Positions 1 through 4,367 of a stretch of DNA of 62,033 nucleotides are shown in pieces. The stretch's first letter is position 1. Each line of letters opens with the position of its first letter. Both the position numbers and the translations under genes were made by a program. This stretch comes from a virus. The notes beneath the pieces are model-generated. The model saw only the letters and a program-made list of their open reading frames with translations, ran no database searches and was not told the DNA's origin. Location: the IMG/VR virus record IMGVR_UViG_3300043777_000073, positions 1 to 62,033 of that record. One strand, 5' to 3'.

Positions 1-126
1 GGCGCCGCTCGCGCCGTGGGCGCCGCTCGCGCCGTGGGCGCCGCTCGCGCCGTGGGCGCCGCTCGCGCCGTGGGCGCCGCTCGCGCCGTGGGCGCCGCTC
101 GCGCCGTGGGCGCCGCTCGCGCCGTG
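1..126. repeat. Seven perfect 18-bp tandem repeats
   Basis: The unit GGCGCCGCTCGCGCCGTG is repeated seven times without a mismatch and starts at the first base of the window, so more copies may lie outside. It is in frame with the methyltransferase on the minus strand, where each unit encodes His-Gly-Ala-Ser-Gly-Ala. It falls in the loop that, in this family, lies between the second conserved block and the C-terminal SAM-binding block. Confidence 0.95.
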
Positions 127-2055
127 GAGTTGGCCCGGTGCATCTCGATCGCGGCCAGTCAGTTCACTCCCGTCCACAAGGTCGAAACCATCAAGCCCGA
201 AGTCTCGTTCCCCGCGCGACGGCTTCGCGCAGAAGAAGAAGCGTGCAGCGCCTCCGACATCGCTGCGCGCAGTACCTGGCGAGTCGATGCCACCGAACAT
301 GCCGCCGCCATAATCTGCCCGATGCTCGCCGCCGCCGCTCATACCAGGACGGTCGCCAGATTGTTCGTTTAGGAGCTTGACAGGACAGCTTTCCACGCAA
401 GAGTAGACTTCGCCGACTTCGCCGCGCTTCGTCTGCGCGAGGCTGCCGCGCGTAAAGCCAATCGACTTGACCGGCTGATCGGGTGTGGCGCCTAGAATGG
501 GCCGCACACCGACAACCTCTCCAGTCTTGCGGCATCCGTCCGCATGGCTCAGTGCGATGTGAGCCGGCCAGCGGCCATTCGCCTGCGATTCGAGATACTC
601 CGGCAGCGAGCCAGCCGCGCGCTCGGTATGCAGACCAAAGTCGCCGATGCCGGCCCCGTGACTTGGGTGGCCCAGTCTTTGCGCCACCGCCGCCGCCGCC
701 GCCGCCGCCTTATCCTCTTCGCTGACGTAACCGATCCGGCACGCATCGATGTTGAGCGCGCCAGTTCCATGGCGCAAGACGTTCGCCGCTAGCGTCGGCT
801 CAGAGAGCGGCGCGCGCGCTAGCCACCAGTCCTCGCAGGCCGGCTTGAGCGCAGAGCCCCAGCCGTCCCAGGCCGCCGAGGCCGCCGAGGCCGCCGAGGT
901 AATGGCGTGCCCCGGTTCGCGCATGTCAAGTCCGTAAACATCCGTTTGCACACCGTTCGGACGTCTCGCGGCATATTGGCCTTGCCCGAGCACCGGCCGC
1001 TCATTCGCTTCCGCCAGTGCTTGATATTCACTTGCGAGCGTACCGACCGTGAATGAGATTAGGCTTGCCGCCATGAACTCCGTAGTAGTGGCACTCGTGG
1101 CAGAGGCATTGTCCGTTTCGTGTGTCATGCCTGAGTTCTGGATGTGTTCGGATCGGCTTGATGTGATGAGCTTCCAGTCTTCGAGTAGAGCCGCATATAG
1201 CGCATCGCTTGCCGCCGCCATCGATGACGGCTCGCTTCCAAGCCAGATCTTCAGGGCTGCGGCGCCCCTGAGTCTGTCCGGCGTGACGCCGCTTGGCAAG
1301 TCCAGAGCATCGTTGGGAGCAGTAGAAGTGTCCGTGCGGTCTGCCGCTGTGATTGTCGATGAGCCAACTTTTATATTTTTGACTGATTCTTCCGCATCCG
1401 TCGCATCTGCGCTCCACCATGTGGAAGGCTCGCTTGCATCCGGTGGAGCAGAACATTGCTCCGCTTCGCACGTGTGATGGGCTTCGGTTACCAACGGTCC
1501 CGCACTGGACGCATCGCACGGCAACTTTTCTGGATTGATTCGCTGCGCTGCACGCTCGCGAGCAGAACGGGCCGCGTCTAGCTGGTCCGCCGCAACGCCG
1601 GCACGCGCCGCGTATTCGCCAAACGCGCGGCAGAGCGCCGGTTGATCTACCTCGCGAACCCGCTGCTGCAACCGCACCCACTTGTCCCGCTCCTGTTTAT
1701 CTATATGCTTTGATATGTTAGCGCTTTTCGGAAACCCGCTCGCAAAAAAATGCGCCACTCGATCACGCACATCCCATCCCGCATTCTCGATGGCCATTGC
1801 GGTCCAGTGCGACGTCCTAGGCAGCGCCCACACGAGCGCGTGCGCGCCAGGCTTTGCGACGCGTCGCAACTCCACGAACACTTCGGCTAGCCACGCGATC
1901 CACTGATCGCGTCCGCCTTTATCCTTGTCCCATTCGGCATTCATGAAGGCGATGCCGCTCGGCGGATCGGTCACGATGGCGTCCACGCTCGCGGTGTCCA
2001 TCGTTCGCAGGACTTCGAGCGCGTCGCCGTGGTGGAGAGTCCAGCGAGCGGTCAT
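1..2055 (-). CDS. DNA adenine/cytosine-N4 methyltransferase, partial (runs off left edge)
   Basis: The reading frame starts at ATG 2055 and stays open to base 1 (685 codons), so the stop is outside the window. Residues 8-33 carry the N6/N4 methylase start with catalytic motif TDPPSG (D30-P-P-S). Further on are typical blocks of phage site-specific methylases: HFFASGFPKS, WDGWGSALKPACEDWW, LRHGTGALNIDACRIG and FFFCAKPSRGERDFGLDGF. The C-terminal FxGxG SAM-binding part would follow beyond the edge. The start overlaps the upstream stop as ATGA, so translation is coupled. It probably protects phage DNA against host restriction. Odd points are an out-of-frame HNH gene inside it (1028-1681), an Ala run near 697-716 and SAA repeats near 878-898. 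The roughly 220 codons overlapping the HNH gene show no methylase motif. Confidence 0.8.
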   Translation of the reverse strand, partial: MTARWTLHHGDALEVLRTMDTASVDAIVTDPPSGIAFMNAEWDKDKGGRDQWIAWLAEVFVELRRVAKPGAHALVWALPRTSHWTAMAIENAGWDVRDRVAHFFASGFPKSANISKHIDKQERDKWVRLQQRVREVDQPALCRAFGEYAARAGVAADQLDAARSARERAAQRINPEKLPCDASSAGPLVTEAHHTCEAEQCSAPPDASEPSTWWSADATDAEESVKNIKVGSSTITAADRTDTSTAPNDALDLPSGVTPDRLRGAAALKIWLGSEPSSMAAASDALYAALLEDWKLITSSRSEHIQNSGMTHETDNASATSATTTEFMAASLISFTVGTLASEYQALAEANERPVLGQGQYAARRPNGVQTDVYGLDMREPGHAITSAASAASAAWDGWGSALKPACEDWWLARAPLSEPTLAANVLRHGTGALNIDACRIGYVSEEDKAAAAAAAVAQRLGHPSHGAGIGDFGLHTERAAGSLPEYLESQANGRWPAHIALSHADGCRKTGEVVGVRPILGATPDQPVKSIGFTRGSLAQTKRGEVGEVYSCVESCPVKLLNEQSGDRPGMSGGGEHRADYGGGMFGGIDSPGTARSDVGGAARFFFCAKPSRGERDFGLDGFDLVDGSELTGRDRDAPGQLHGASGAHGASGAHGASGAHGASGAHGASGAHGASGAHGASGA
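1028..1681 (-). CDS. HNH endonuclease nested out of frame inside the methyltransferase gene
   Basis: The 217-residue product has four Cys-pair zinc knuckles between residues 27 and 125 (CRRC, CVQC, CDGC and FCS..C patterns). A classical HNH domain follows: C160-A-I-C163, AHHIKP (H172-H173), N189, then C194-H-E-C197. The start is GTG 1681, and an AGGAG sequence sits 8 nt upstream inside the methylase coding sequence, giving it its own ribosome site. It is in the -1 frame relative to the methylase, which has no stop anywhere across the overlap. The family is typical of free-standing homing endonucleases. The cysteine pattern makes this frame certainly protein-coding. Whether the methylase frame is also used here is open. 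Confidence 0.85.
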   Translation of the reverse strand: MGAVAAAGSRGRSTGALPRVWRIRGACRRCGGPARRGPFCSRACSAANQSRKVAVRCVQCGTVGNRSPSHVRSGAMFCSTGCKRAFHMVERRCDGCGRISQKYKSWLIDNHSGRPHGHFYCSQRCSGLAKRRHAGQTQGRRSPEDLAWKRAVIDGGGKRCAICGSTRRLEAHHIKPIRTHPELRHDTRNGQCLCHECHYYGVHGGKPNLIHGRYARK

Positions 2056-2369: not shown

Positions 2370-2560
2370 GGCGACACCTGGAGCGGGGGCGGCCCGAAAC
2401 GCTTGGGCAAGCGCACCACGCGAAGAGCCATCGTTGACCGGCAAACGCAGTTGCGAAGCTCGAGCCAGTTGAACGGGCCGTCTTGGTGCCAGCCGACGAA
2501 GCGAAGCGCGCGGTACTCGGCGACGGTGTACCGGCGGGAGCAGGAGCAGGGAACGCTCAC
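2366..2560 (-). CDS. Hypothetical 64-residue protein
   Basis: Starts at GTG 2560 (GTGA overlap with the gene before). It has an N-terminal SVPCSCSRRYTVAEY segment with two close cysteines and a basic C-terminus. No known family is recognised. Support is the four-base overlap at both ends and an uninterrupted frame. Confidence 0.55.
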   Translation of the reverse strand: MSVPCSCSRRYTVAEYRALRFVGWHQDGPFNWLELRNCVCRSTMALRVVRLPKRFGPPPLQVSP

Positions 2561-3024
2561 GACGTGTGCTCCTTCACGAATCGACGGATGTGCTCGGCGA
2601 CCTCGTGCGCGGAGGCTTTCGCGAGCGGCCGGCCGGTATCCGCACAGGCCGTGCATTCTGACCCGTCCTCGTTGTAGTGGTCGCCGCGGCAGTCCGGGTC
2701 GTCTTGATCGCACGGCGTGAACAGGTACTCGGTTGCACCCTCCGAGAGGTCAAAGAGAAGCTCGGACGCGCGCACGTATGCGGCGTGGTACCTGAGGTCG
2801 GAGCCGATAGGGGCGGGCACGAAGGCGTTACTGATCGAGCGAATCTCGACGCCGCACTCCTTGCCCCAGAGCGCGGTCGCGTGCCCGAGCGCGCAGGCCG
2901 GCGCGCCGCATTCGGCGAGCGGTCTGCCGTCCCAGCTTGCGGCCACCCACGAGCGGAAGTTGAACCGCTTGGGCGGCAGCGTGTCCAGATGGTCGGCGAG
3001 GGCCAACAGGCGGGCGGCGTTCAT
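2557..3024 (-). CDS. Hypothetical 155-residue protein
   Basis: Starts at ATG 3024 in an ATGA overlap. Residues 5-45 form a helix followed by the motif KRFNFRSW and a CGAPACALGHAT segment, an arrangement that recurs in small phage proteins of unknown role. A DPDCRGDHYNEDGSECTACA cluster near residue 115 has four Cys/His that could bind zinc. The C-terminus is a charged helix (AHEVAEHIRRFVKEH). Function unknown. Confidence 0.7.
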   Translation of the reverse strand: MNAARLLALADHLDTLPPKRFNFRSWVAASWDGRPLAECGAPACALGHATALWGKECGVEIRSISNAFVPAPIGSDLRYHAAYVRASELLFDLSEGATEYLFTPCDQDDPDCRGDHYNEDGSECTACADTGRPLAKASAHEVAEHIRRFVKEHTS

Positions 3025-3735: not shown

Positions 3736-3890
3736 GACAACCTCGCAGCCGGCCGAACCGTGGCCGTCATGGTCGAGTACATGATCCAGCGGGCCGCGGT
3801 GTCGATGGTCTGCGAGACCTCGAAGGCGCGGAACTGGGCGACGGACACGGGCGCGACGGGAGCGGCGGGCGGAAGGATTGTTGCGTTCAC
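3732..3890 (-). CDS. Hypothetical 52-residue protein
   Basis: From GTG 3890, overlapping the upstream stop as GTGA. The N-terminus is Pro/Ala/Val-rich (ATILPPAAPVAPVSVAQF). No domain recognised. It is placed here because each neighbour is joined by the same four-base overlap. Confidence 0.45.
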   Translation of the reverse strand: MNATILPPAAPVAPVSVAQFRAFEVSQTIDTAARWIMYSTMTATVRPAARLS

Positions 3891-4087
3891 GACTGCGCCG
3901 TCTTCCAGCCCGAGATGGGGCACCAGTACATGAGGGCGCGGCCCTCGTAGCAGATGACCGCGGAGAAGCCGCGGCGCCGCACCGCGTCCTTCGCGGCCGC
4001 TAGGCTGGTGCAGTCTTCGTCCGCCGAGCAGACGTAGAGTGACTTGACCGTCCAGAGAGCCGAGCTGTTTTGCGTTGCGTTGTTCAT
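3887..4087 (-). CDS. Hypothetical 66-residue protein with leaderless start
   Basis: The product starts MNNATQNSSALWTVKSLYVC and continues with a compact alpha/beta-looking stretch (AAAKDAVRRRGFSAVICYEG). ATG 4087 is preceded by ACTCCC and then a -10-like hexamer, with no ribosome site, so transcription should begin at or next to the A of the ATG. It is the first gene of the left operon that leads to the methyltransferase. An ATG at 4102 is an alternative start. Confidence 0.65.
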   Translation of the reverse strand: MNNATQNSSALWTVKSLYVCSADEDCTSLAAAKDAVRRRGFSAVICYEGRALMYWCPISGWKTAQS

Positions 4088-4093
4088 GGGAGT

Positions 4094-4122
4094 AGTATGC
4101 ATCCTAGCATTGCATGGCGCAA
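4094..4122 (-). promoter_or_regulatory. Sigma70-like promoter for a leaderless mRNA
   Basis: On the minus strand: TTGCGC, 17 nt, CATACT, then ACTCCC and ATG. Both hexamers match the sigma70 consensus only in part. The 17-nt spacer and the 6-nt gap to the ATG are identical to the promoters at 6603-6631 and 19674-19702, which supports the call. Confidence 0.5.
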
Positions 4123-4148
4123 GACAATAAACGCATGCCCATGTCGAT

Positions 4149-4367
4149 TTATCTTTCGGCCACTTTGACGTGTGGGACCTTGTAGCCGAGTCGTTCCGCG
4201 TAGGTCGAAAGCGCCTGGTAGTGCCAGCGGGATATCTCGACCTTGCCCTCAGACCAGCGCCACACAGTCGAGGCGGACACCCCGAGCGCTTTGCCGAGTT
4301 CCGTGACCCCACCCGCGGCCTTTGCGAGCTTTAGCCATGCCCCGGACAGCTTCGTCGTGCGATTCAT
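4149..4367 (-). CDS. Helix-turn-helix DNA-binding protein (YdaS/Cro-like)
   Basis: 72 residues from ATG 4367 (ATGA overlap). Residues 22-48 form an HTH: GGVTELGKALGVSASTVWRW, with the Cro/YdaS pattern TELGKALGVS..TV.RW. It closes the operon that begins at 6596, just before the next leaderless promoter. It could be a repressor or a Cro-like switch protein, and is the only clear phage-repressor candidate in the window. Confidence 0.75.
   Translation of the reverse strand: MNRTTKLSGAWLKLAKAAGGVTELGKALGVSASTVWRWSEGKVEISRWHYQALSTYAERLGYKVPHVKVAER

Follow-up and report, generated by a model that had tools for sequence, protein, structure and literature searches.

The window analysed here (the whole 62,033-nucleotide stretch of the IMG/VR virus record IMGVR_UViG_3300043777_000073) comes from a tailed phage, probably one with a contractile tail, and carries terminase, portal, tail sheath and tape-measure matches. 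At one of its ends, a DNA methylase reading frame occupies positions 1–2055 on the minus strand, where it stays open across an insertion and is cut by the contig end; it matches N6_N4_Mtase as well as phrog_67, phrog_6025 and phrog_3008. The N-terminal part of the methylase (1714–2055, minus strand) runs from motif IV to FPKSANI, and the Pfam match (N6_N4_Mtase, 2.3e-7) lies on this near side of the insert. The inserted segment, delimited by alignment to methylases with an empty site, follows at 1033–1713 (minus strand) and comprises about 227 codons in the methylase frame, from SKHIDKQERDKW to LISFTVGTLA. Past it, the methylase continues (1–1032, minus strand) with SEYQALAEANERPVLG, then from GWGSALKPA through GTGALNIDACRIG to ARFFFCAK, and ends in a tandem repeat; GWGSALKP, NVLRHGTGALNIDACRIG and ARFFFCAK are all readable in the methylase frame, and this far side matches phrog_3008 (DNA methyltransferase).

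Nested in the −1 frame relative to the methylase lies an HNH endonuclease ORF (1028–1681, minus strand; 654 nt, 217 aa with stop) that begins with GTG. A putative ribosome-binding site, AGGAG, is found at 1690–1694 (minus strand), inside the methylase codons CAG GAG and 8 nt upstream of the GTG; the arrangement AGGAG-N8-GTG is also present in locus L008. The nested frame matched HNH_2 (5.5e-6) and HNH (1.3e-4) in Pfam, both past the cut-offs, and PHROGs agrees with Pfam on both the methylase and the nested HNH. Its product has CxxC zinc-knuckle pairs and a C-terminal HNH, with H172 H173, N189, C194/H195 and C197/H198 invariant in an alignment of 12–13 sequences, so that the HNH active site is conserved. 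The first-pass annotation had already described such an HNH gene with its own AGGAG and GTG, together with a methylase frame that has no stop through the same 654 nt and resumes methylase sequence beyond, and the profile matches on both sides of the insert and in the nested frame bear this out. The two products would have endonuclease and methylase activity, respectively.

Two further observations concern the methylase of the window. The contig ends in a perfect 18-bp tandem repeat (positions 1–127, 7.1 copies) that lies in the methylase frame as HGASGA repeats and may be either a real coding repeat or an artefact of the assembly end; because the contig ends in it, the SAM-binding motif I of the methylase C-terminus, present in complete homologues, is not visible in the window. 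In addition, motif IV (approximately 1954–1968, minus strand) reads DPPS instead of DPPY, and the related methylases L081 and L069 have DPPA. A non-aromatic residue at this position thus seems, from these sequences, to be a subfamily trait, and it may affect base specificity or activity. With DPPS in motif IV and its C-terminus cut off, this particular methylase may or may not be active.

Related methylases, retrieved by their similarity to the N-terminal part, were used to locate the insertion site, as the first-pass annotation had proposed. Approximately 130 of them do not have the region of about 228 residues, and most of these show an empty site, so that the boundaries become apparent at FPKS-x-(D/N)(V/I)-SKAIDKAAGAEREVVG. 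The linker after FPKS usually spans 50–76 residues, mostly with SKAIDKAAGAEREVVG or a variant of it, and is reduced to 9–15 residues in some relatives; L081, the closest to the N-terminus of the window's methylase, has the empty site FPKSLDL-SKAIDAHFGAEREVVG. The insert measures 222–232 residues in all carriers. Its boundary in the window can be placed only to within about 12 residues, since the 5′ end mimics the sequence to the right of the site: its first dozen residues resemble the right side (SKQIDQQERNR in BUCT618 vs. SKAIDKAAGAER), and the right-hand copy in the window (SEYQALAEANERPVLG) is degenerate. Such drift of the right-hand copy would be expected if the left-hand mimic had taken over its role. 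Linkers of 131–147 residues in 12 other methylases were also examined and are not this insert.

The same nested pair, with the methylase frame open and the HNH in the same relative frame, was found in 14 of 14 distinct loci encoding this HNH, namely the window, Escherichia phage BUCT618 (L001) and 12 IMG/VR contigs (the near-copies L006 and L075 were left uncounted), and this conservation excludes a sequence error in the window. BUCT618 was the one annotated phage found by tblastn, and there the sole annotation over the HNH is that of a site-specific DNA methyltransferase. In 12 of the 14 homologues the HNH starts with ATG and has no clear Shine-Dalgarno sequence (the latter among those aligned). 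Phage and virus collections were the only sources of the nested lineage; E. coli genomes and bacterial genome contigs added no nested copy, and plasmids yielded only distant HNHs and likewise no nested copy of the lineage. This HNH also has free-standing relatives.

Several pairs of loci carry nearly identical inserts in clearly diverged genes. The insert of BUCT618 and that of L007 share 94% DNA identity vs. 71% and 58% for the flanks, whose third positions differ by 58–63%, and the corresponding values are 97% vs. 83% and 64% for L011 and L074, and 92% vs. 72% and 63% for L004 and L005. With inserts 92–97% identical amid flanks of 58–83%, the insert therefore moves, and these identities point to recent transfer between diverged methylases; together with the empty sites in relatives, they show a patchy, mobile distribution. 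HNH wobble positions hold a disproportionate share of the differences within the insert, and dN/dS (NG86) amounts to about 0.15–0.3 in the HNH frame and about 0.6–1.1 in the methylase frame, values that are biased in overlapping genes and were used as a direction only. The HNH is the leading, conserved frame, and what is mainly demanded of the methylase-frame peptide is that it contain no stop. The pairwise excess of identity in the methylase frame was not used as proof, since common descent inflates it in close pairs; the counts of stop codons and the free-standing control described below were used instead.

Predicted structures agree with this division of roles. The AlphaFold model of the HNH frame has a mean pLDDT of 76 and resembles the HNH of phage GVE2 (5h0m) in Foldseek with a probability of 0.99 (E = 0.04); no Foldseek match was obtained at E ≤ 0.001, and a sequence search of the PDB found nothing. 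The methylase-frame insert was modelled as mostly disordered between terminal helices, with well-folded flanks, and the HNH frame is thus predicted to fold and the methylase-frame insert to form a disordered stretch within a recognisable methylase. The earlier suggestion that the methylase tolerates some 220 out-of-frame residues as a linker fits both this prediction, with its terminal helices around a disordered loop, and the position of the site in a linker that varies between 9 and 76 residues in relatives.

GC-rich composition and codon phase could, in principle, have left the methylase frame open by chance, in which case the methylase would be dead and the HNH its cargo. Taken alone, the window is compatible with chance: synonymous shuffling of the HNH codons gave 2.3 expected stops (P(0) = 0.049) and recoding with the phage's own codon usage gave 2.0 (P(0) = 0.10), meaning that an open frame in this GC-rich sequence is weakly unusual and not significant. 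Moreover, the phase used here is naturally poor in stops (1.5–3 expected vs. 6–26 in the other phase). Chance does not, however, extend to the whole set, as the frame is open in 14 of 14 loci, including those at 33–39% GC where 5–10 stops are expected in each; no stop was observed in the host frame vs. about 76 expected from local codon usage (14 loci) and about 26 expected when each gene's own synonymous codons were shuffled (12 loci). In 35 free-standing HNH relatives recovered by the same scans, the corresponding frame had 350 stops vs. 337 expected and was open in none of them (0/35). From the absence of stops in the 14 loci and the behaviour of this control it follows that keeping the host frame open is under selection. 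A dead methylase is further contradicted by complete homologues, which keep the motifs TVKP and DPFMGSG downstream of the insert, and we consider this explanation very unlikely.

A self-splicing intron with the HNH ORF inside it, excised from the transcript, would also reconcile the two genes, and phage group I introns do often contain HNH ORFs (PMC11855218). Nevertheless, the ribozyme core of a group I or II intron was not detected with Rfam, even at E ≤ 1, and with 654 of its roughly 681 nt taken up by the HNH ORF, the insert leaves no room for one; a stop-free host frame in all 14 loci would, besides, be unnecessary for an intron, which makes splicing at the RNA level scarcely credible. No intein family was present among the Pfam matches. 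The insert could alternatively be a functional methylase domain, e.g., for target recognition, with the HNH frame overprinted later or incidental, and its near-constant length (222–232 residues), some conserved positions in the methylase frame and the helices predicted at its ends speak for such a domain. Against it, the HNH is the better-conserved frame and the one with free-standing relatives, whereas the methylase-frame insert has no HNH-free relatives: no methylase with the region of about 220 residues and without the HNH was found in IMG/VR, where all matches were known HNH carriers. Most relatives do not have the insert at all and some have a linker of 9–15 residues, so we regard the domain interpretation as highly improbable.

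We therefore favour, with a probability of roughly 0.86, a selfish, frame-transparent element of the homing type, i.e., an HNH gene taking up an insertion of some 228 codons in a tolerant methylase linker. As the host frame is free of stops, ribosomes that read through would produce a methylase with the insert looped out, and those that start afresh within the insert (here at the GTG with its AGGAG) would yield the endonuclease from the −1 frame. Methylase genes whose SKAIDKAAGAEREV site is empty would be the presumed target for cutting or nicking by the HNH, and the empty allele would acquire the element on being repaired from the occupied one, a transfer to which the insert identities above lend indirect support; such an element would need neither intron nor intein. 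In complete homologues the catalytic motif precedes the insert and the SAM-binding motif follows it, and a working methylase therefore requires read-through. Translation of both frames, cleavage of empty sites and retained methylase activity are what we infer from this arrangement.

Hidden HNH genes were also encountered in other methylases; only alternate-frame HNHs confirmed by Pfam are named here, and false matches of the alternate-frame ORF search without HNH features (L127, L180, L188 and others) were discarded. In L008, a single methylase gene harbours two hidden HNH ORFs that are unrelated to each other and lie in separate linkers (2411–3019 and 3800–4195, plus strand); the second is an HNH_3 (Pfam, 1.5e-18), and the methylase frame is open through both. 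Further HNH_3 ORFs are nested out of frame in methylases on the plus strand of L125 (3286–3711), L192 (2414–2881), L195 (537–1121), L213 (616–1104), L168 (1975–2808) and L061 (549–1301), a set that consists of environmental and cyanobacterial phages (Cr-LKS3), several of which look ShiLan-like. In the same methylase family, L081 (2811–3731, plus strand) and L072 (959–1846, plus strand) have an HNH_3 ORF out of frame within what are possibly inteins with a dual-coded homing endonuclease, an assignment that rests on splice-junction motifs, with no intein profile matched; their intein frames contain no stops vs. 7.1 and 17.4 expected. The low-stop phase is common to the lineage of the window, the ShiLan-type elements and most HNH_3 cases (with a similar expectation for the others), and Molly and both intein cases use the other phase. 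As nested HNH genes have few stops there to begin with, the low-stop phase may have offered them an easy entry.

We lean slightly towards the broader view that frame-transparent homing is a third general strategy, next to introns and inteins, by which an endonuclease gene can reside within a coding gene, and in which unrelated HNH families would repeatedly enter linkers of one phage methylase family, selection would erase the host-frame stops, and the same dual coding would occur inside inteins. The present data widen a phenomenon of mycobacteriophages to an unrelated HNH family, another site, Escherichia and environmental phages and a doubly occupied methylase, and show in numbers that the open state of the host frame is actively maintained. 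They also illustrate that annotation can miss nested HNH genes, as in BUCT618, where only the methylase is annotated. Homing and dual translation are directly testable, since 14 alleles, unoccupied sites and a clear target sequence are available.

The kind of element is already published (ShiLan domain and Pacc40, PMC11855218; Applejack, PMC12613952). The ShiLan domain, first described in 2023 (PMC9957025) and analysed in mycobacteriophage ShiLan gp65 by Arsenault, Gosselin & Gogarten (2025, Genes 16:178, PMC11855218), is likewise inserted in phage DNA methylases of this broad family without a stop in the methylase frame, and conceals a zinc-finger HNH that is read out of frame, in the same relative phase as here, and starts a few codons into the insert. 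Its 5′ end also mimics residues to the right of the site, its distribution is patchy and mobile, and it is neither intron nor intein, the intron search having been negative there as well (PMC11855218). In contrast, ShiLan is inserted between GTALKPS and YEP...FEPIVVARKP, and the lineage of the window between FPKS-NV and SKAIDK; the ShiLan HNH is an HNH_3, whereas that of the window belongs to HNH/HNH_2 with N-terminal zinc knuckles, and the two have negligible similarity (23 bits, pairwise BLASTP). ShiLan has no Shine-Dalgarno sequence according to PMC11855218, unlike the window and L008.

Among other mycobacteriophages, Molly (gp60/gp61) has an annotated out-of-frame HNH in a methylase ORF near the same linker, but of a third HNH type and in the other phase, and no relation to the HNH of the window was found by tblastn at E ≤ 1e−5. 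Applejack gp54/gp55, compared by its description (PMC12613952), also has an HNH ORF nested in a methylase ORF. The Pacc40 gp60 insertion similarly places an HNH-like ORF out of frame in a phage methylase gene that stays open, but, as described in PMC11855218, the gene is a divergent helicase-methylase and both the site and the putative HNH are different. Actinobacteriophage inteins with non-canonical architecture are the subject of a preprint cited in PMC11855218; that preprint may cover out-of-frame intein endonucleases. Group I introns with HNH ORFs and inteins are alike in being mobile and in using an endonuclease to enter conserved genes; their host product, however, is restored by splicing, whereas the lineage of the window has no splicing machinery and the host would read through. 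By its HNH family and its site, both of which differ, the element of the window is best classified as an independent lineage of the ShiLan kind and not as the ShiLan domain proper.
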